Shown: positions 34,688 through 57,473 of the stretch, one piece after another
Position numbering within the stretch: the stretch's first letter is position 1
How the letters are laid out: each line of letters begins with the position of its first letter
NCBI GenBank assembly: GCA_024860875.1
Contig: JACPSZ010000007.1
Coordinates: 1 to 64,000, forward strand
Source of the DNA: Nitrososphaerota archaeon
Lineage (GTDB): Archaea; Thermoproteota; Nitrososphaeria; Nitrososphaerales; UBA57
DNA: 64,000 nt
Reading direction: 5' to 3'
Program-made: the position numbers and the translations under genes
Notes under the pieces: model-generated
Databases searched by the model: none
Seen by the model: only the letters and a program-made list of their open reading frames with translations
Told to the model about the DNA's origin: nothing

Positions 34688-34729
34688 CTGCACTACAATC
34701 AAAAATCTGCTAATAAAAGCCTACTAATC

Positions 34730-35113
34730 TTAGGAGCTTGGCTTATCGCAAATATGACAAGAATCCACGTCATAATCCGGCTCCATCTCTCTATGAATGT
34801 CGCACAATAGCCTGTTCTTCCTGATAAAGTCGGTGGCCCTGTTGAACCTGTCCATAACGTCAATTTCGTCAGCCCCATTTGCTATCATCGAGGCTATGAC
34901 GTCGCAATGCATTTCTATCTCCCTCTCCCTCTGCCATTTCTCCCTCTTGCCTCTAGTCTGACGCATGTAATTGCTTATGGCTGCCTGCGTTACCCCTAAC
35001 TTTGCTGCTACCTGCTGCTGGTTCATGTCGTAAACTTCCATGAGCCTTTTAGCCACTATGGCCCTCAAGTACGGGATTACTGCTTTGGCCTCGATCTCGC
35101 TTGGTAGTAGCAT
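34730..35113 (-). CDS. XRE-like HTH regulator with C-terminal zinc-type Cys/His (COG2522-like)
   Basis: 127 residues. A helix-turn-helix (NQQQVAAKLGVTQAAISNYM, about residues 31-50) is followed by a basic helix and a C-terminal Cys-Asp-Ile-His ... Cys-His-Ile-Cys cluster likely to bind zinc. This layout matches the archaeal regulators of the COG2522 type. Its upstream promoter region faces the small membrane protein gene. Targets are unknown. Confidence 0.65.
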   Translation of the reverse strand: MLLPSEIEAKAVIPYLRAIVAKRLMEVYDMNQQQVAAKLGVTQAAISNYMRQTRGKREKWQREREIEMHCDVIASMIANGADEIDVMDRFNRATDFIRKNRLLCDIHREMEPDYDVDSCHICDKPSS

Positions 35114-47071: not shown

Positions 47072-47872
47072 TCATTGTTCTACGGGCAAGTCTTCCCTAG
47101 CACTCCACTCTGAAAACGATCTATCGTAGATTTTGACATTTGGATAGCCTGCAAGTCTCAATGCCAGAAAGGTGTGCGATGCTCTCTCTCCTACCTGACA
47201 ATAAGCGATAACCTCTTTGTCTTTTGTTATCCCTTTACTGCTGAATAATTTTTCTAATTCATTCTTGTCTTTGAAGAGTTTCTCCATGCTTGCACCCTCG
47301 AACCAAGGCAGGTTAACGCTGTTAGGAATCCTTCCCGGGCGAGGGGAAGAAGCTATCAGCCCTTCGTACTCTTCAGGATTTCTCGTATCTACAAGAATTA
47401 CATTAGGCTTTCCAAGATTAGAAGATATGTACTCTGCAGAAACCCTATAGTCATCGTTTGTCTTTGCAGTGAATTTTGCTGGCTGCGGCTTTGCAACATC
47501 TCTTGTAACGAGATAGCCCTTCATCCTCCATGCGCTAAAAGAAATTTCGAGCAAAGCGACATTGGCACCATAAAATTCGAGCACCCAGAACAGTTTCGAT
47601 GCGGAAGTTCCACCTCTGTCCCCATAAATTATGATCTTTGAATTATTGCTGACACCTTTTTCGGAGAGTAAAGCCTCAATTCTTTCTTTCGGAGCGATGT
47701 CAAAGAAGGGCTTTGAAGGGTCAAAGTCGACTATTTTTTCGTAATGTATCAAGACTGCATTTGGAATATGCCCCGTTGAATACTCTACTGGACTCCTCAT
47801 GTCGAATATTCTGACATTATTATCGTTGAGATGTTGCAGGACCCATTCCGCAGGAACCAGAATCTCTGGCAT
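47072..47872 (-). CDS. two-domain thiosulfate/3-mercaptopyruvate sulfurtransferase (rhodanese)
   Basis: 266 residues. N-terminal rhodanese domain without Cys (SKIIIYGDRGGTSASK), C-terminal domain with active-site EVIAYCQVGERASHT near residue 222, the usual two-domain layout in which the second domain carries the persulfide Cys. It moves sulfane sulfur. Its ATG overlaps the stop of the tusA-like gene by one base, forming a sulfur-relay operon that is divergent from the SelD-like gene. Confidence 0.85.
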   Translation of the reverse strand: MPEILVPAEWVLQHLNDNNVRIFDMRSPVEYSTGHIPNAVLIHYEKIVDFDPSKPFFDIAPKERIEALLSEKGVSNNSKIIIYGDRGGTSASKLFWVLEFYGANVALLEISFSAWRMKGYLVTRDVAKPQPAKFTAKTNDDYRVSAEYISSNLGKPNVILVDTRNPEEYEGLIASSPRPGRIPNSVNLPWFEGASMEKLFKDKNELEKLFSSKGITKDKEVIAYCQVGERASHTFLALRLAGYPNVKIYDRSFSEWSAREDLPVEQ

Positions 47873-48105
47873 TAGACTTTCCTCTTGACGTAGAATTTGA
47901 ACGTTTCATTTTCCTGCTGCATTGAGATTAGATCATGTCCAGCCCTCCTAACCCAAGCAGGTATGTCCTCCTTTGCAGCTGGATCAGTCGCTATTACCTC
48001 TAAAACTCCTCCCACGGGAACCTGCGATATGGCTTGCTTTGCTTTTATTACTGGCATGGGGCATAGCATTCCCTTGACATCGAGAGTCTTAGCTGTTGCG
48101 CTCAT
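47872..48105 (-). CDS. TusA-family sulfur carrier
   Basis: 77 residues. TusA/SirA fold with the motif LDVKGMLCPMPVIKAK, whose Cys (in CPxP) carries a persulfide. The remainder (GGVLEVIATDPAAKEDIPAW) fits the family's beta sheet and helix. It lies first in the minus-strand operon with the rhodanese. The gap to the SelD-like gene holds a copy of the shared palindrome. Likely passes sulfur from rhodanese to a downstream acceptor. Confidence 0.9.
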   Translation of the reverse strand: MSATAKTLDVKGMLCPMPVIKAKQAISQVPVGGVLEVIATDPAAKEDIPAWVRRAGHDLISMQQENETFKFYVKRKV

Positions 48106-48116
48106 CTATGGTACAT

Positions 48117-48131
48117 TAAAACGCCGTTATA
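48117..48131. promoter_or_regulatory. shared palindromic operator, copy A (imperfect)
   Basis: TAAAACGCCGTTATA, core AACG-C-CGTT. It lies in the 38-base gap between the divergent tusA-like (start 48105) and SelD-like genes and abuts a TATA-like run (GTTATATCTAAAT). Other copies at 50069 and 56423. Confidence 0.6.
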
Positions 48132-48143
48132 TCTAAATACTTA

Positions 48144-49607
48144 TTGTTATTTTTTCATGAAACGTTGCCTTCTGACACAGTCGCAATAGAAGAGTTCTGG
48201 GATCGAGTTGCTAGATATCGAGAGATGGGCATGGATCCTCTACGCTGGGTCGCTGGCTGTGCCGTAAAAGTTGATCTTACAACTGTAGTGTATCCAGCAT
48301 TGAGAAGGCTTAGACCGACTCTAAAGGGTTTGGGAGTTACGGTAGGGCATAGGGAGGATGCGGACATTTTCCCTCTAGGAAAGGAAGAGCCCGTAGTTAC
48401 TAGGAGAATATACGACCCAAAGAAGCCTTCTGTTGATTCAAAAGATCTAAAGAGGATAAACCCGAAGAGGGCCATTTCTTTGGTTCAGGTGCATCAAAGA
48501 GGTGCAGAGAACGAGAAGACGTTTGGAGACTTTTTACTCTCTGTCTATAACGAAATTGGAAAGTCAGGTATTAACTTCTTTGTGGGGAAAGGCCATTCAA
48601 TTATTACTGCTTATCCAGATGCTGAATTTACCCTGTTTGATTTTATTTCGCACAAAGAGGGAGGTGCAGAAGGATGGACTCTTGCCAACAACGATACAAT
48701 ACAAGTGATCGATCCTACATTGGATCCTGGTTCTGCAGAGCAGACGGAAGTAGGAGTGTGCAACTCTTTGAACGATCTGATAACCCTTGGCTGCTACGAG
48801 AATTTGCGGTTATTGCCCGTAATAGATGCTCCAAACGAAGAGCTTGCAAAGAAAGTATATGGTCACATGAAGGCTTTCGCCGCAAAAAATGGGATCAAGA
48901 TGGTTGATGCTGAATCTCCAAACAAAAGGAAATTGCTGATCGGCGCGACTTTCTTAGGAGACATGAGGAAGGAGCCTCCAATACACGAAGAGAACCTCGA
49001 AGAGGGGATGAAGGTACTTGTCAGCAGGCCATTAGGCGATTTAGCACCTATCAATACCTACCTTTCAGCACTTGCAGATGAAGCTTTCATGAAGGCTCTG
49101 GAGGAGCAGGGTAGCAGCTTGGAAGAAGTCCAAAAGGCGAAGAATCAGGTCATAGCCACGATGCGCCTGCCCAATCTAAAGATCGGAAAGATAATCAACG
49201 AATATTTGCCAGAATATTGGGAAGCCTTCGACCCTTCGGAGCATATTGTTTCTACAGGCGATGTTTCAGGCCCGGGGATTCTGATATTCCAAGAGCTTGC
49301 AGAGAAGGCTAAGGTCGATATTGCTCTTAATGAGATCCCTCTAGGCTTTCCAAAATTCGTCAAGTTCGTCACGGAGCACTTCCTTATGGACAACGCCACA
49401 GCAGGCACAAATGGCGCTGTAGCAATAATTGCAAGGGACAGCATAATTAATGAAGTTCAAGCAAAACTAAGGAAAGAGGGATATGAACCAAAGGTTATAG
49501 GCATGGTGTTGGGTAAAGGAGAGGGAGTTCTTAGGGTTGGCGAGGAGGTTACACAGATGATAGCGTCGCAGCCTCAACTGAATGAATTGGTGATAGAGAG
49601 GAAATGA
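48144..49607 (+). CDS. SelD-like protein of the AIR-synthase (PurM) family
   Basis: 487 residues. ATP-binding PurM/SelD architecture: near residue 30 the segment WVAGCAVKVDLTTVVYPAL resembles the SelD active site (AGCGCKI-type) with Cys and Lys kept; VGVCNSLNDLITLGCYENL near residue 208 and the C-terminal GTNGAVAIIARD near 420 fit the family. SelD makes selenophosphate from selenide and ATP; Sec machinery is not visible here, so thiophosphate or another substrate is possible. TTG at 48144 or TTG 48165 are candidate starts; the latter suits a leaderless message after the TATA. It is followed by a second TusA-like gene overlapping by four bases. Confidence 0.7.
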   Translation: MLFFHETLPSDTVAIEEFWDRVARYREMGMDPLRWVAGCAVKVDLTTVVYPALRRLRPTLKGLGVTVGHREDADIFPLGKEEPVVTRRIYDPKKPSVDSKDLKRINPKRAISLVQVHQRGAENEKTFGDFLLSVYNEIGKSGINFFVGKGHSIITAYPDAEFTLFDFISHKEGGAEGWTLANNDTIQVIDPTLDPGSAEQTEVGVCNSLNDLITLGCYENLRLLPVIDAPNEELAKKVYGHMKAFAAKNGIKMVDAESPNKRKLLIGATFLGDMRKEPPIHEENLEEGMKVLVSRPLGDLAPINTYLSALADEAFMKALEEQGSSLEEVQKAKNQVIATMRLPNLKIGKIINEYLPEYWEAFDPSEHIVSTGDVSGPGILIFQELAEKAKVDIALNEIPLGFPKFVKFVTEHFLMDNATAGTNGAVAIIARDSIINEVQAKLRKEGYEPKVIGMVLGKGEGVLRVGEEVTQMIASQPQLNELVIERK

Positions 49608-49843
49608 CCGAGCAGCAGATAGTTAAGAAACTCGATGTCACTGGTGAAATCTGCCCCTGGCCAGTAATATTCTCGACAAGGGAGATGAAGAAGATGCACT
49701 CTGGGGAGGTTTTAGAAGTAATTACAGATCACATGCCTTCTACTTTGAATGTTCCAGCGGCTGCTGCAAAAGAGGGACATAAGGTTTTAGGAACAGAGCG
49801 CATAGACGATGGCGTTTACAAGATCTCAATCAAAATAAGATAG
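49604..49843 (+). CDS. TusA/YedF-like sulfur carrier
   Basis: 79 residues. TusA-like fold with VTGEICPWPVIFSTREM near residue 14; Cys in CPWP would carry sulfur. Overlaps the SelD-like gene by four bases, so the two are coupled. In bacteria, YedF (TusA-type) genes are linked with selD, so the pairing is familiar although the chemistry here is open. Confidence 0.85.
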   Translation: MTEQQIVKKLDVTGEICPWPVIFSTREMKKMHSGEVLEVITDHMPSTLNVPAAAAKEGHKVLGTERIDDGVYKISIKIR

Positions 49844-50068: not shown

Positions 50069-50083
50069 TATAACGGCGTTATA
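50069..50083. promoter_or_regulatory. shared palindromic operator, copy B (perfect 15-mer)
   Basis: TATAACGGCGTTATA, a perfect palindrome around the central base, overlapping the TATA-like AAATATAA and ending four bases before the sulfite reductase ATG. Confidence 0.7.
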
Positions 50084-50087
50084 ATAG

Positions 50088-52022
50088 ATGTTAGAGAACT
50101 TGGCCGAAATCAAGCCCAACCTTAAGACAAAGTTTGAAGACTTTTCCGGGCCAGAGAAGGCCAAACTAAGCACTCAAGGCCTTACACTGACGATAAAGTC
50201 TATTGAACACCCTGCAAACTTGCACCATCAATTAAGAGATCCTAGTTTCGAGGACATTTCCGATGTTGCGGAGAGTCTGGCCAAATCCTGCGGGATTTAC
50301 CTTGAGTTTGATAGAGCAAAGACTGGCGAAGAAAAAGACTGGAGATACATGCTAAGAATCTGCATACCCGGAGGAGGGCCAATTACAAGGAAGCAGTGGG
50401 AGATTCTCGATGATGTCACAAACAAATATTGCATTTCTGATAGGTATACGGGAGTAAACAAACCGTCGCTGAGGATAACCACAAGGCAGAACATTCAGCT
50501 GCACTGGGTCAAGAAGCAGAATGTTGTTGATGCTGTGCAGGCAATAGCAAAATCAGGCTTTTATTCGATTAACGGATGCGGGGACAACACTAGGAATGTC
50601 ATGGCTTGCCCACTTTCTCAATTCTCTGGGATTTACAATGCAAATGCCTGGGCTCAGAAATTAGGTAAGTACTTTGCACTCCCAACCGCTTCGTACATAG
50701 AGATTTTTGAAATTGATCCAAAATACATGCGCGAATTGAATGAGAGGAAGCCCGAAGAGAGGTTCGATTATGGAACTAATTTGCTGAATAGAAAGTTCAA
50801 GATTGGTTTTTCTGCAATTCATTATGATGAGCAAGCAAAGAAGTACGTTCCTGATAACTGCGTTGAATTGAGAACTGATGATATTGGAATCGCCCCAATT
50901 TTGGAGAATGGCAGTGCGAAAAGGTTTCAGGTTTACATCGGCGGGAGTCAAGGCGAGAAGAACGGTCAGCCAACCTTTGCAGCTCTTGGAGTTCCATTTG
51001 GAATATTTGATGAATCTAATTTGATGGAGGGACTAGATGCGATAGTAAAAGTGCACAAGGAGTGGGGAGACAGGCAGAACAGGTACTGGGCGAGGATGAA
51101 GTATGTAATTTACAAGATGGGTATCAAATGGTACAGAGAGCAGGTTCGTCAAATTAACAACATAGACTTTGATCCTCCAATAGAGAATTTTGATTATGGA
51201 GATAGGAAATTACATCATGGATGGATTAAGCAGCAATCCACTGGGCTATGGGCTTATGGCGCCTTTATTGAAAATGGTAGGGTAATTGATGGTCATAATG
51301 GACAGTTGAAGAGTATGGTGCGATACCTTATGGAAAATTATCCCATAACTCTATTCACAACTCCAAATCAGGATTTGATCTTTGCCAATATACCCGAAGA
51401 GGACAAGCATAGGTTTGAAAATGATATCAAGAAATTTGGCCACGGGCTGAGAAATGGCAAGCCGTATTCGAAATTGAGGATATTGTCTGGTGCGTGTGTT
51501 GGGAGAGATACATGCAGGTTGACGTATACCGATTCTGAAAAGTTTGAGCCTTTTCTTATTGATGAGTTAGAGACTAAATGGGGCAGTATGGCAGAGTCCA
51601 TAGGGATAACTGGTTGTGAGAGGCAGTGCTTCAGACCGGCAACGAAGACCATTGGCTGGGTAGGCTCCGGTTTTAATTTGTACACTTTGAAGATTGGAGG
51701 GACTGAGGATGCTAGGAATCAGGGCGAGCCTCTCGTTGATCCTGGGACAATGGAGATGTACTTGAGGAATGTTCCGAAGAGCGAGGTTGCAAAAGTTACC
51801 AATGCTCTATTTGAATTCTATCTTGCTAACAGACTTCCTGAAGAGGATGGGAGCGGAGGAATGGGCTACTTCTTTAGAAGGGTTGGCATAAAGAAGATTA
51901 TTGAATACTTTAAGAGCAATCCGAAGACGGTGCATTTGATGAAGCCAACAAAGAGCCCTCTGCCTCCAAGAAAATCGCCTACTGCAATTGAACCATTTAA
52001 GATAACCCAGCAGGCTAGCTAG
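50088..52022 (+). CDS. ferredoxin-type sulfite/nitrite reductase (siroheme)
   Basis: 644 residues. Siroheme/4Fe-4S ligands are present: CVGRDTC near residues 469-475 and CERQC near 509-513 (C-x5-C and C-x3-C), with the repeated NirA/CysI ferredoxin-like halves before them (RITTRQNIQLHW near residue 128; CGDNTRNVMACP near 165). It reduces sulfite to sulfide or nitrite to ammonia; the sulfur context favours sulfite. Longer than usual SiR by C-terminal residues ending KSPTAIEPF. It is preceded by the perfect palindrome and followed by tag. Confidence 0.85.
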   Translation: MLENLAEIKPNLKTKFEDFSGPEKAKLSTQGLTLTIKSIEHPANLHHQLRDPSFEDISDVAESLAKSCGIYLEFDRAKTGEEKDWRYMLRICIPGGGPITRKQWEILDDVTNKYCISDRYTGVNKPSLRITTRQNIQLHWVKKQNVVDAVQAIAKSGFYSINGCGDNTRNVMACPLSQFSGIYNANAWAQKLGKYFALPTASYIEIFEIDPKYMRELNERKPEERFDYGTNLLNRKFKIGFSAIHYDEQAKKYVPDNCVELRTDDIGIAPILENGSAKRFQVYIGGSQGEKNGQPTFAALGVPFGIFDESNLMEGLDAIVKVHKEWGDRQNRYWARMKYVIYKMGIKWYREQVRQINNIDFDPPIENFDYGDRKLHHGWIKQQSTGLWAYGAFIENGRVIDGHNGQLKSMVRYLMENYPITLFTTPNQDLIFANIPEEDKHRFENDIKKFGHGLRNGKPYSKLRILSGACVGRDTCRLTYTDSEKFEPFLIDELETKWGSMAESIGITGCERQCFRPATKTIGWVGSGFNLYTLKIGGTEDARNQGEPLVDPGTMEMYLRNVPKSEVAKVTNALFEFYLANRLPEEDGSGGMGYFFRRVGIKKIIEYFKSNPKTVHLMKPTKSPLPPRKSPTAIEPFKITQQAS

Positions 52023-53707: not shown

Positions 53708-54496
53708 CTATAGTCCTATCGGTTCTGTCGACAGGCCCCATCTCTGCGATATCTTGTTCTGAAGTTTTTCAAACAACAACCTATCGAATACTTGTCCTAC
53801 TGCAAAGATAGCTATCATCACTGCAAATACCAGTGATAGATCGTTCAATTCCCTTCCGTACATCAGAAGATGGCCAAGGCCGAGAGTAGCCATGATCATC
53901 TCCGCACCGATTAGAGAACGCCACGCAAAAGACCACCCGTGCCTTAATTCGCTAACAATTTTGGGAGAGGCTGCTGGCAGCATAACGAAGAAGAAGAGCC
54001 TAGCGCCTCTGGCTCCCATGTTTCTTGCCGCGTTGATGTAAGTTGGGGAAGTATTCCTTATTCCATCGTAAGTGCCCAGAGTTATAGAGAATAATGCGCC
54101 CATAACTGTAACAAAGATCATGGCATAGTCGTTGAACCCGAACCACAGTATTGCAGGCGAAACCCAAGCTATGCTCGGAAATGATTGTATTCCGACTCCA
54201 AACGGCCTTAAAGTCCTTCCCAGGTAGGCAGACTTTACCATCGCAAGCCCTATTGCAGCTCCAAAGACTATTGATAGTATGTAGCCTATCGCTAGCCTTG
54301 TCAGACTCGTCAATATCCCTATTTGCAGGAGGCCGTTGTTTATGCTTGCAAAAAGCGAAGAAGCTACCATCGCTGGTGAAGGGAAAAGGTAAGTTGGGTA
54401 AATGGCAAACCTGTAAACCAGCTCCCAGATTCCTAGCAGAACTGCTAAGAATAACACTGCGTCTGGTATTTCGTTTGTCCGACTTTTACCTGACAT
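53708..54496 (-). CDS. ssuC: nitrate/sulfonate/bicarbonate-type ABC permease
   Basis: 262 residues with about six TM spans of the SsuC/NrtB/TauC type: a start at PDAVLFLAVLLGIWE, FPSIAWVSPAILWFGF and the EAA-like loop RNMGARGARLFFFVMLPAASP near residue 165. It forms the membrane channel of the importer with the ATPase and binding protein that precede it on the same strand. The 11-base overlap with the ATPase gene shows coupling. Sulfonate rather than nitrate is inferred from the context. Confidence 0.8.
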   Translation of the reverse strand: MSGKSRTNEIPDAVLFLAVLLGIWELVYRFAIYPTYLFPSPAMVASSLFASINNGLLQIGILTSLTRLAIGYILSIVFGAAIGLAMVKSAYLGRTLRPFGVGIQSFPSIAWVSPAILWFGFNDYAMIFVTVMGALFSITLGTYDGIRNTSPTYINAARNMGARGARLFFFVMLPAASPKIVSELRHGWSFAWRSLIGAEMIMATLGLGHLLMYGRELNDLSLVFAVMIAIFAVGQVFDRLLFEKLQNKISQRWGLSTEPIGL

Positions 54497-55265
54497 TTTG
54501 CTCGCTCACCGCCCTCTGAACTTCATCCTTTATCTCTGCAAAAATCATCTTAGCAGTATCCACTACAAAGTGGTCTTCTATCTGCCTCGGTCTGGGGAAG
54601 TTTATCGGAAATTCTTTCTTTATCCTCGCAGGTCTGTAGGTAAGTGCCAGCACTCTGTCTGCCAAGCAAGCTGATTCTCTAACATTGTGCGTGACAAATA
54701 CTATAGTCTTTCTGGTCCTTGAATGTATGTTCTGAAGTTCGGCATGCAGCATGTCCCTTGTCTGCGCGTCAAGGGCAGCAAATGGCTCGTCCATCAAAAG
54801 CACTTGAGGATCCATGGCAAGTCCCCTTGCAATAGCAACCCTCTGTTTCATTCCCGTTGACAGTTGATGAACATAAGAATTCTCGAATTTTGACAGGTGC
54901 ATCATTTCGAGATACCGCCTTGTTATCTCCTGTCTCTTGCCTTTCTCAACACCTGCAGTCCTTAACCCGAATTCAACATTCTGCAGCACTGTCAACCATG
55001 GAAAAAGTGCCCCCTCCTGAAACACCATTAACCTGTCAGGTGAGGTGTCATTGACCTGCCGCCCATCCAGCAGTACTTCCCCCTCTTGAGGCTTTTCAAG
55101 CCCAGCGATTATGTTTAGCAGAGTAGTCTTTCCGCAGCCGGAAGGCCCGACGATGCAGACAAACTCTCCGTCCTTTACAGTCAAGCTGATGTTGTTAAGG
55201 GCAAGGAGCCTCCCGTTCCCAGTTTCATAGTATTTCGTTATGCCTCTTAGCTCAAGCTTAGACAT
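54486..55265 (-). CDS. ssuB: nitrate/sulfonate-type ABC ATPase
   Basis: 259 residues. Walker A GPSGCGKTT near residue 40, Q-loop VFQEGALFPWLTV near 80, signature HQLSTGMKQRVAIARGLA near 135, Walker B VLLMDEPFAALDAQTR near 160 and H-loop VTHNV. Pattern (PFAALDAQTR) fits the NrtCD/SsuB subfamily. It energises the importer. Four bases separate it from the binding protein gene. Confidence 0.85.
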   Translation of the reverse strand: MSKLELRGITKYYETGNGRLLALNNISLTVKDGEFVCIVGPSGCGKTTLLNIIAGLEKPQEGEVLLDGRQVNDTSPDRLMVFQEGALFPWLTVLQNVEFGLRTAGVEKGKRQEITRRYLEMMHLSKFENSYVHQLSTGMKQRVAIARGLAMDPQVLLMDEPFAALDAQTRDMLHAELQNIHSRTRKTIVFVTHNVRESACLADRVLALTYRPARIKKEFPINFPRPRQIEDHFVVDTAKMIFAEIKDEVQRAVSEQNVR

Positions 55266-55269
55266 TTTT

Positions 55270-56337
55270 CTACTCCTGAATCTGCTGGAGTTTCTTCTCC
55301 GCCAAGACCTTATTCAGCATTCGCAGGTCGTAAATATTTGCCAGATCAGGTTTTTTATCTCCAAGATATCCGAGCTTGTAAGCATCGTCTGCAGACTTTA
55401 AGAGCGACTGCTTAACAGGATCGTAGGTAATTTCTATTCTTGCCATGGCGTCTTTCAGCACGTCTTCATTGAGAGACTGGCCTGTCATCTTCTTTATTTC
55501 GCCGTTTAAGATTTTGGAGGCTTCTGCCTTGTTATCGTTTATCCATTGCACTGTGTCCACATGAACCTTGAGCCATTTTTCTACAAGGTCTGAATGTTCT
55601 TCAAGAAACTTTGTCCTAACAATCAGCAGCGTAGTGACGAACTTTCCTTCTGGCCAAAGTTGCCTTTCATCGAGGAATATTCTTCCGTTGGCTTCCCTTA
55701 CCAGCCTTGCACCCCAAGGCTCTGGCACCCACGCTCCGTCGAGCTCTTTCTTCAGAAACAGAGTGAGTATGTCGGGGTTTTGCACTGGAATTATTCTAAC
55801 ATTGCCTCCTTGCTCTGCGAACCTATACCCGTTGCCCAAAATGTACGCTCTGAGTGAAACGTCCTGCGTATTTCCTAGTTGGGGCGAGGCAAATGTCTTT
55901 CCAGCAAAATCTGCTTCCGAAATGATGCCAGAATCGTTTCTTATGACAAATACTGCACCACCGCTAGCCGCTCCCGCAATAACCTTTAGAGCTCCGCCAG
56001 ATTTTACGTAGCCGTTTATTGCTGGGTTAGGGCCAACATATGTAAGGTCGATTTGATCTGCAAAGAGGGATTCTATTGCAGATGGCCCAGCGTTGAATAT
56101 CGTAGTCTTGATTTCAATGTCAGGAAAGGCATCTTTGAACGAATTCCTTGCTATGCCTATTATCGGAATAGCATGATTAATGTTGGGGAAGTATCCGACC
56201 CTTATCGCGTCAGCTTTAGAATTCTGCATATTATCAACTACCTTTACTGGTTGTCCTAGTAGAGTAGCATCGGCTAGGACTGCAGCAATGATTACAGATG
56301 CGATTAGTATTTTCACTGATGAACGCAAATTAAGCAC
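55270..56337 (-). CDS. ssuA: nitrate/sulfonate-type substrate-binding protein
   Basis: 355 residues. N-terminal signal/anchor (ILIASVIIAAVLADATLL) then a periplasmic-binding fold: RVGYFPNINHAIPIIG near residue 45, LTYVGPNPAINGYVKSGG near 95, and EPWGARLVREANGRIF near 205. This fits the NrtA/SsuA/ThiY-like family, which binds nitrate, sulfonates or taurine. Substrate cannot be read from sequence; the divergent ComA-like gene and the sulfite reductase favour a sulfonate. First gene of the operon. Confidence 0.8.
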   Translation of the reverse strand: MLNLRSSVKILIASVIIAAVLADATLLGQPVKVVDNMQNSKADAIRVGYFPNINHAIPIIGIARNSFKDAFPDIEIKTTIFNAGPSAIESLFADQIDLTYVGPNPAINGYVKSGGALKVIAGAASGGAVFVIRNDSGIISEADFAGKTFASPQLGNTQDVSLRAYILGNGYRFAEQGGNVRIIPVQNPDILTLFLKKELDGAWVPEPWGARLVREANGRIFLDERQLWPEGKFVTTLLIVRTKFLEEHSDLVEKWLKVHVDTVQWINDNKAEASKILNGEIKKMTGQSLNEDVLKDAMARIEITYDPVKQSLLKSADDAYKLGYLGDKKPDLANIYDLRMLNKVLAEKKLQQIQE

Positions 56338-56447: not shown

Positions 56448-57473
56448 ATGGAAACACGTCTAAATACGCTAGAAATGAGCAATATTGGCATACAAATAGG
56501 GCTATCAAGGTTCCTAATGGACATCTTTCCTGCGAGAGATAGCAAGCCCAGAGATAAGGGGGTTACGATGGTTTTGGATAGACTGCAGGGCATTGACAAA
56601 GAAGAATTTGAAGCCTTGGCAGATTATGTTGACATCGTAAAGATAGGCTGGGGTCTTTCGACGCTGTTAAGCGAGAATAAACTTGTATCAAGGATAGAGT
56701 TCTACCACAAGAATTCGGTAAAGGTTTCTACAGGAGGCACTCTCCTCGAAATAGCGCTTGCAAAAGGGAAGAGCAGCCAGATGATAAAGATGGCTCGCAA
56801 GGTTGGCTTTGACATCATAGAGGTAAGCGAGGGGATCACGGAGATAGGAGAAAGGAAGCAGAGCCTTATTGCAGAAATTACATCTAACGGCTTGGAATAT
56901 GTCATAGAGGTTGGGAAGAAGGATCCCAAAAACCAGCTCAGCATGGAGGAAACTGTTTCTGGTATTCAGAAGGCTATATCGCTCGGAAGTAAATACGTGA
57001 TTGTTGAAGGAAGAGAATCTGGCAAGTCGGTAGGGATTTACGACGAAGGTGGAGCCATTAAGTGGAACTGGGTAGAGGCCATTTCTGGCAGGTTTTCTCC
57101 AGACCAGCTGATGTTCGAAGCCCCTCTGGAGGAGCAACAGGCTGCGTTGATAGTCCATTTCGGCTCAAATGTAAATCTTGGTAACATAGCATTCAGGAGC
57201 ATAGGTGCATTGGAGACGCAGAGGCAGCAGCTAAGAGGGGACACGTTCGGGATGATAAAGGCCAGCGGGAACATTGCAGGCTCTCCAGCAACAAAATTTG
57301 TCTACTATCTTATACAGAGCAATAAGTCTCTGGATCAGACTGCAATAATACAGATGTCTGGACTACCCAGAAGAACAATACAGTCATCGCTTGATTCTCT
57401 GGTCAGTCAGAACGCCATAAGGGAGACTAGGGATCCTAACGACACAAGGCGGAAAGTGTACTCCCTTGCATAA
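56448..57473 (+). CDS. comA: ComA-like phosphosulfolactate synthase fused to a winged helix
   Basis: 341 residues. Residues 28-265 match ComA: FLMDIFPARDSKPRDKGVTM near residue 22, DIVKIGWGLSTLL near 62, STGGTLLEIAL near 94, IEVSEGITEI near 122 and a later YVIVEGRESGKSVG near 187. ComA adds sulfite to phosphoenolpyruvate, the first step to coenzyme M or sulfolactate. Residues 275-341 form a MarR-like winged helix (NKSLDQTAIIQMSGLPRRTI, SSLDSLVSQNAIRETR, RKVYSLA). Usual ComA is about 250 residues, so the C-terminal domain is extra and suggests regulation. A second ATG at 56475 is a possible start. It faces the importer operon. Confidence 0.8.
   Translation: METRLNTLEMSNIGIQIGLSRFLMDIFPARDSKPRDKGVTMVLDRLQGIDKEEFEALADYVDIVKIGWGLSTLLSENKLVSRIEFYHKNSVKVSTGGTLLEIALAKGKSSQMIKMARKVGFDIIEVSEGITEIGERKQSLIAEITSNGLEYVIEVGKKDPKNQLSMEETVSGIQKAISLGSKYVIVEGRESGKSVGIYDEGGAIKWNWVEAISGRFSPDQLMFEAPLEEQQAALIVHFGSNVNLGNIAFRSIGALETQRQQLRGDTFGMIKASGNIAGSPATKFVYYLIQSNKSLDQTAIIQMSGLPRRTIQSSLDSLVSQNAIRETRDPNDTRRKVYSLA

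Follow-up and report, generated by a model that had tools for sequence, protein, structure and literature searches.

The comA-wHTH gene of the window (the whole stretch of 64,000 nucleotides that was analysed) encodes a complete ComA (phosphosulfolactate synthase) barrel followed by a C-terminal MarR-type winged helix-turn-helix (wHTH) domain, and lies beside genes for an SsuABC sulfonate importer. The domain architecture, the orthologues, the linkage to ssu genes, the operator statistics, the absence of ComB from carrier genomes and the decay of active-site residues in one family together make it rather likely that the protein is a local regulator of ssuABC with an enzyme-derived (ComA) sensor, and that its own gene lies inside a sulfur regulon.

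Architecture and distribution of the ComA-wHTH fusion

The fusion ORF is present in a single copy in its genome. Its conserved start is probably M10, because the orthologue in genome G003 has an in-frame stop directly before the equivalent methionine (Table 1). Pfam PF02679 (ComA) matches residues 29-265 over profile positions 2-243 of 243, with an E-value of 3.2e-75 and 253.1 bits against a cut-off of 25.2. In the AlphaFold2 model the barrel (residues 36-262) is mostly of high confidence and is followed by a linker that is disordered at residues 263-274 (pLDDT below 50). Methanocaldococcus jannaschii ComA (1qwg) is the best Foldseek match (E 9e-23); it aligns end to end with residues 36-269 (E ~2e-50) and shares its motifs, but has 251 residues and no wHTH. 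The preliminary description had noted that standard ComA proteins are shorter than this one, and the lengths bear it out (251 aa for 1qwg and 276 aa for 1u83 versus 341 aa).

Table 1. Features of the window around the comA-wHTH gene; positions are those of the window.
Feature	Position	Strand	Basis or remark
ComA-wHTH fusion ORF	56448..57473	+	341 aa, or 332 aa if translation begins at M10 (56475), as is probable
ComA (phosphosulfolactate synthase) barrel, aa 29-265	56532..57242	+	Pfam, 1qwg signatures
Linker, aa 263-279	57234..57284	+	AlphaFold2; 263-274 pLDDT <50
MarR-type wHTH, aa 280-340 (61 residues)	57285..57467	+	AlphaFold2, MarR_2 profile, Foldseek
Putative DNA-recognition helix, aa 308-320	57369..57407	+	LPRRT[IV]Q near-invariant among orthologues
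Operator ATAACGGCGTTAT between divergent ssuA and comA-wHTH, then TATA-like TATATTAATAAA	56423..56435		Exact
ssuA-like sulfonate-binding protein, divergent from comA-wHTH	55270..56337	-	TIGR01728, above cut-off
ssuB-like ABC ATPase	54486..55265	-	Profile matches
ssuC-like permease	53708..54496	-	Profile matches
Sulfite/nitrite-reductase family hemoprotein, operator-linked	50088..52022	+	Profile matches
Operator ATAACGGCGTTAT, exact copy upstream of sulfite reductase	50070..50082		
TusA sulfurtransferase, overlaps SelD-like gene	49604..49843	+	
SelD-like protein, operator-linked	48144..49607	+	Name from sequence reading; no Pfam match
One-mismatch operator AAAACGCCGTTAT between divergent TusA and SelD-like genes	48118..48130		Identical variant in G003
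Second TusA-like protein, operator-linked	47872..48105	-	

The C-terminal 66 residues alone gave weak matches to MarR_2 (E 8.4e-5), HTH_43 and TrmB. MarR_2 was matched by all 16 aligned members of the wHTH domain, at scores of 19-23 bits that lie under the curated gathering cut-off of 27. The isolated domain was modelled by AlphaFold2 with a pLDDT of 95.8; in the model of the whole protein its helices span residues 280-292, 297-304 and 308-320, and the wing strands residues 324-329 and 332-340. A Foldseek search of the domain against the PDB gave 47 matches at E<=1e-3. Apart from one RNA polymerase III winged helix, all are MarR-type regulators, DNA-bound MarR, HpaR and CouR among them, and the core superposes on the MarR-DNA (5h3r) and CouR-DNA (6c2s) structures with a TM-score of ~0.88 and an rmsd of ~1.3 Å. 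The fusion differs from the MarR family in having only the 61-residue core, in Pfam MarR scores below the cut-off and in a sensor that is a separate barrel. The dimerisation helices of MarR are absent, as the AlphaFold2 model places no extra helices after the wHTH and a disordered linker before it. The preliminary description had proposed a complete ComA domain with a MarR-type wHTH behind it, and both parts of that architecture are confirmed. It had also named a non-DNA-binding helical tail as the alternative; because the winged-helix fold is confident and its PDB matches are nearly all of MarR type, this is excluded at the level of the fold.

The fusion is carried by certain archaea of soil and groundwater. 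Within the order of the present genome, three families have full-length orthologues (f1, to which that genome belongs, f8 and f9), at ~40-89% identity and in one or two copies each. Their putative recognition helix, with the motif LPRRT[IV]Q, is almost identical across the three families, though the candidate operators differ. In an even sample of 300 genomes across the phylum, the fusion was found only in members of f1 and f8; a further genome, G271, encodes a ComA-like protein that lacks the wHTH. A scan of genome contigs returned one relative. The remaining ComA relatives in the order are ~290 aa long and have no wHTH.

Gene neighbourhood and the sulfur operator

Genes for ssuABC adjoin comA-wHTH in 11 of the 15 loci examined. 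These are the window, L108 and L109, the f9 loci L140 and L142, and the f8 loci L144, L145, L147, L149, L150 and L151. In the f1 genomes (the window, G001 and G003) ssuABC is divergent from comA-wHTH. At L143 (G031) the place of ssu is taken by sat (ATP sulfurylase) and cysC (APS kinase). In the other three loci (L141, L146 and L148) neither ssu nor sulfate-activation genes were found nearby; L141 is close to a contig end. Conserved in three families, the ssu linkage upholds the earlier proposal of a sulfonate connection and is the strongest functional pointer, suggesting a local regulator of sulfonate import.

The palindrome ATAACGsCGTTAT stands at the fusion gene itself in all three f1 carriers. 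The site is invariant in G000 (the present genome), G001 and G003 except for its centre base. Joined with TATATTAATAAAC, it makes up a long invariant block, the sole one ahead of comA-wHTH in these three genomes. The present genome has six exact sites, five of which precede sulfur-metabolism genes: an SIR-type hemoprotein (window 50088), comA-wHTH/ssuA, cysH with sat, a second NIR/SIR hemoprotein and DsrE. Among the operator positions in this genome are C8:167263, C22:11942 and C25:26740, and 50070 and 48118 in the window. The sixth exact site, at G000:C13:3084 (L034:3084), lies between a DUF92 membrane-protein gene and an unassigned ORF, and is the one exact site here at which no sulfur gene could be recognised. 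The preliminary description had placed the gene beside a shared palindrome; the two exact copies in the window agree with this, and genome-wide the palindrome marks a sulfur regulon.

In the order as a whole, 49 exact sites were found in 24 of 61 genomes. The centre base is G or C in 44 of the 49, a start codon lies within 60 bp in 38, and only 3 lie inside long ORFs. The sites are found mainly at sulfur and Fe-S genes, which comprise SIR, cysH-sat, TusA, DsrE, rhodanese, sufB and comA-wHTH. Further operator-linked genes encode ABC-ATPases (which may be sufC), a Cys/Met-metabolism PLP enzyme and a luciferase-like monooxygenase, and sites with one mismatch stand at genes for a PALP-fold enzyme and NadA. 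The operator is also present in other families, among loci L071-L107. In both f17 genomes it stands in front of a gene for a small Cys-rich protein with a CxC...CxxC pattern (L078, site 3001, and L081, site 2928). Counts of exact sites are modestly above those of a reversed control (~49 versus 20) and counts with one mismatch are no better than the control, and the case for the operator therefore rests on position and gene context. By these a chance palindrome was rejected, and they indicate that ATAACGsCGTTAT is a genuine operator of sulfur and Fe-S genes throughout the order. At comA-wHTH in f1 it overlaps or adjoins a TATA-like element, a placement most simply explained by repression. The repressor role proposed in the preliminary description is read from this placement only.

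No copy of ATAACGsCGTTAT was found at comA-wHTH in the f8 and f9 loci. Another dyad, TATGC-N9-GCATA, is present upstream of comA-wHTH in 5 of 12 of these loci at no more than one mismatch; the expectation is ~0.008 per locus, an approximate figure because the dyad and its spacings were chosen after inspecting the sequences. The loci that bear it are L144, L151, L143, L141 and L147, and it is a candidate for an operator peculiar to f8 and f9. A wider regulon in f8 was not detected through it, since a search pattern derived from a pair of f8 sites matched little else in the f8 genomes. No SIR homologue was detectable in the f9 carriers and only a distant one in f8, at which neither dyad was found; the protein is therefore not simply a regulator of sulfite reductase everywhere.

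The ComA barrel and the reader of the palindrome

The f1 barrel keeps the motifs of 1qwg save for conservative changes (VKIGWG, GGTL, EVGKKxP, EGRESGK, FEAP and LRGDTFG). Against the NCBIfam arch_ComA equivalog TIGR03849 the protein of the window scores 235.7 bits, under the cut-off of 280. In f8 the Arg of EGRES is deleted, N246 is replaced by E and E154 by Lys, and the RGDT and GWG motifs are lost. In the proteins with these decayed ComA sites the wHTH and its LPRRT[IV]Q helix nevertheless persist, as does the linkage to ssu genes. This combination favours a sensor role. A further departure from M. jannaschii ComA is that ComB (PF04029), the next coenzyme M step, was absent in all 12 carrier genomes tested, in a search whose control was positive in 7 of 14 control genomes. 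Canonical coenzyme M biosynthesis was rejected on this ground. The absence of ComB and the decay in f8 beside a retained wHTH and ssu linkage make it most likely that the retained function is regulatory. For any ComA reaction that still takes place, no sink is known. With its signatures intact where checked, the f1 barrel may also still be an enzyme; the f8 barrel has probably become a sensor only. The idea of an enzyme acting as a sensor, put forward in the preliminary description, is favoured by the decayed f8 sites.

Several proteins could read the palindrome. In f4, stand-alone wHTH genes for 84-91 aa (L071:12459-12731, L072:4274-4525 and L099:666-917) encode homologues of the ComA tail that end in a Cys-containing tail (for example CLYCKDEC). 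The operator is upstream of each, exact in L071 and with one mismatch, ATAACTCCGTTAT, in L072 and L099, and the L071 gene is flanked by two operators within a sulfur gene cluster. A homologous wHTH also forms the C-terminus of an NAD kinase (L018:691-1707, with homologues at L124 and L126-L139), which is near-universal in the order, being present in most of its genomes. Like the fusion, it is an enzyme with this C-terminal domain; unlike the fusion, it has a different enzyme part, was not found in f1 and has no ATAACGsCGTTAT upstream in the copies checked. A small regulator of XRE type, which carries a CxxH...CxxC motif in its C-terminal part, is encoded at 34727-35113 (- strand) of the window, at C25:101762, at L173:1075-1488 and at L206, and is found in 58 of the 61 genomes of the order. 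The fusion, the stand-alone wHTH and the XRE regulator each miss some of the genomes that have the operator, and no single universal reader is fixed.

That a regulator other than ComA-wHTH reads ATAACGsCGTTAT has about an even chance. On this account, which is evenly balanced as a whole, the reader is order-wide and most plausibly the XRE protein, comA-wHTH is only one of its targets, and ComA-wHTH would regulate ssuABC through a site of its own. Many genomes have the operator but not ComA-wHTH, and four of them (G004, G006, G029 and G036) have no other close wHTH copy either, G004, G006 and G036 being only 70-84% complete. In G004 and G029 a one-mismatch operator directly precedes the XRE gene. 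Operators at suf and NadA genes would fit an Fe-S sensor, which the XRE protein with its Cys motif possibly is, and the different dyad of the f8 and f9 comA-wHTH genes points the same way. The XRE protein fits less well elsewhere: neither of its two close copies in the present genome bears the operator, the family also occurs where the operator does not (such as in f10 and f11), G025 has operators and only a weak XRE match, and in f4 it is a stand-alone homologue of the ComA tail that sits on the operator.

Those f4 genes, one with an exact and two with a one-mismatch operator, are among the observations that speak for ComA-wHTH itself as the reader, a possibility that we put somewhat below even. 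Another is that all three f1 carriers have an exact operator in front of the fusion gene, within the sole long invariant block of the divergent region, and a third is that other exact sites of the present genome precede two SIR-type reductases, cysH-sat and DsrE. The earlier claim that the protein reads the palindrome is favoured by these observations and weakened by the operator in lineages that lack both the protein and a close wHTH and by the different dyad in f8 and f9. The full scheme is a tentative one: ComA-wHTH would bind ATAACGsCGTTAT, repress the sulfite/sulfonate regulon and, as a trigger enzyme, sense PEP, sulfite or its product in an active site whose f1 signatures are intact. A more specific version, in which an active synthase represses its own gene, ssuABC, sulfite reductase and cysH-sat through ATAACGsCGTTAT according to occupancy by sulfite/PEP or product, and has decayed to a pure sensor in f8, appears unlikely. 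Intact f1 residues would also suit a plain ComA enzyme that makes phosphosulfolactate for an unknown purpose and whose wHTH serves protein contact or oligomerisation, and the NAD kinase-wHTH proteins, with no operator in the copies checked, indicate that enzyme-wHTH fusions in the order need not serve this regulon. We consider the plain enzyme improbable, as f8 members retain the LPRRT-bearing wHTH in spite of lost enzyme residues, the carriers tested lack ComB, and the linkage is to transporter genes and not to pathway enzymes.

Proposed mechanism and relation to known systems

The local regulator of ssuABC that we favour would be a one-component transcriptional regulator, with the ComA barrel as sensor and the C-terminal MarR-type wHTH as output. 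Its conserved job would be the control of the adjacent ssuABC importer and probably of its own gene. Sulfonates enter the cell via SsuABC and are then broken down to sulfite. ComA takes sulfite and PEP as substrates, and its barrel would report either sulfite together with PEP or phosphosulfolactate, which is the product. The signal would pass from the barrel through the flexible linker to the wHTH and adjust transcription of ssuABC and of the regulator's own gene. Since the wHTH has no dimerisation helices, dimerisation would have to be supplied by the barrel. This requirement speaks against the proposal, as do the three loci with neither ssu nor sulfate-activation genes nearby, a putative recognition helix that hardly varies between families with different candidate operators, and the SIR genes that were undetectable in f9 and only distant in f8. 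In f1, comA-wHTH would also be wired into the wider sulfur/Fe-S regulon through ATAACGsCGTTAT. We infer every step past a ComA barrel with a wHTH beside ssuABC, namely DNA binding, the ligand, the direction of regulation and the regulation of ssuABC itself.

Proteins that combine an enzyme and a DNA-binding domain in one chain are exemplified by BirA and PutA, in which activity and binding are both proven. By analogy the fusion would be of this kind, but its enzyme and domain order are different, and what is proven for BirA and PutA is for the fusion only predicted. MocR regulators join a GntR HTH to an aminotransferase-like sensor, and some control taurine metabolism (PMC5320631). They likewise have an enzyme-derived sensor fused to an HTH, and include a sulfonate-related case; unlike the fusion they are bacterial, and the enzyme fold, ligand, HTH family and domain order all differ. 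Enzyme-derived sensors on an HTH are thus already known from MocR, BirA and PutA, and the papers searched contained none built on ComA. A literature search with incomplete journal coverage yielded no paper on the ComA-wHTH fusion or on the operator, and a study of archaeal fusions (PMC11237513) does not mention ComA. A sulfur regulator or operator for this archaeal order, which includes ammonia oxidisers, was likewise not found described in the papers searched.

The fusion family contains an enzyme barrel that has seemingly turned sensor, and it can be seen both with its signatures intact (f1) and decayed (f8). The compact operator, which marks sulfur and Fe-S genes in many families, is a finding separate from the fusion. 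The absence of ComB from all tested carriers argues against annotating these genes as coenzyme M biosynthesis. If it is true that the ComA barrel senses sulfite, the protein would be a natural intracellular sulfite receptor.
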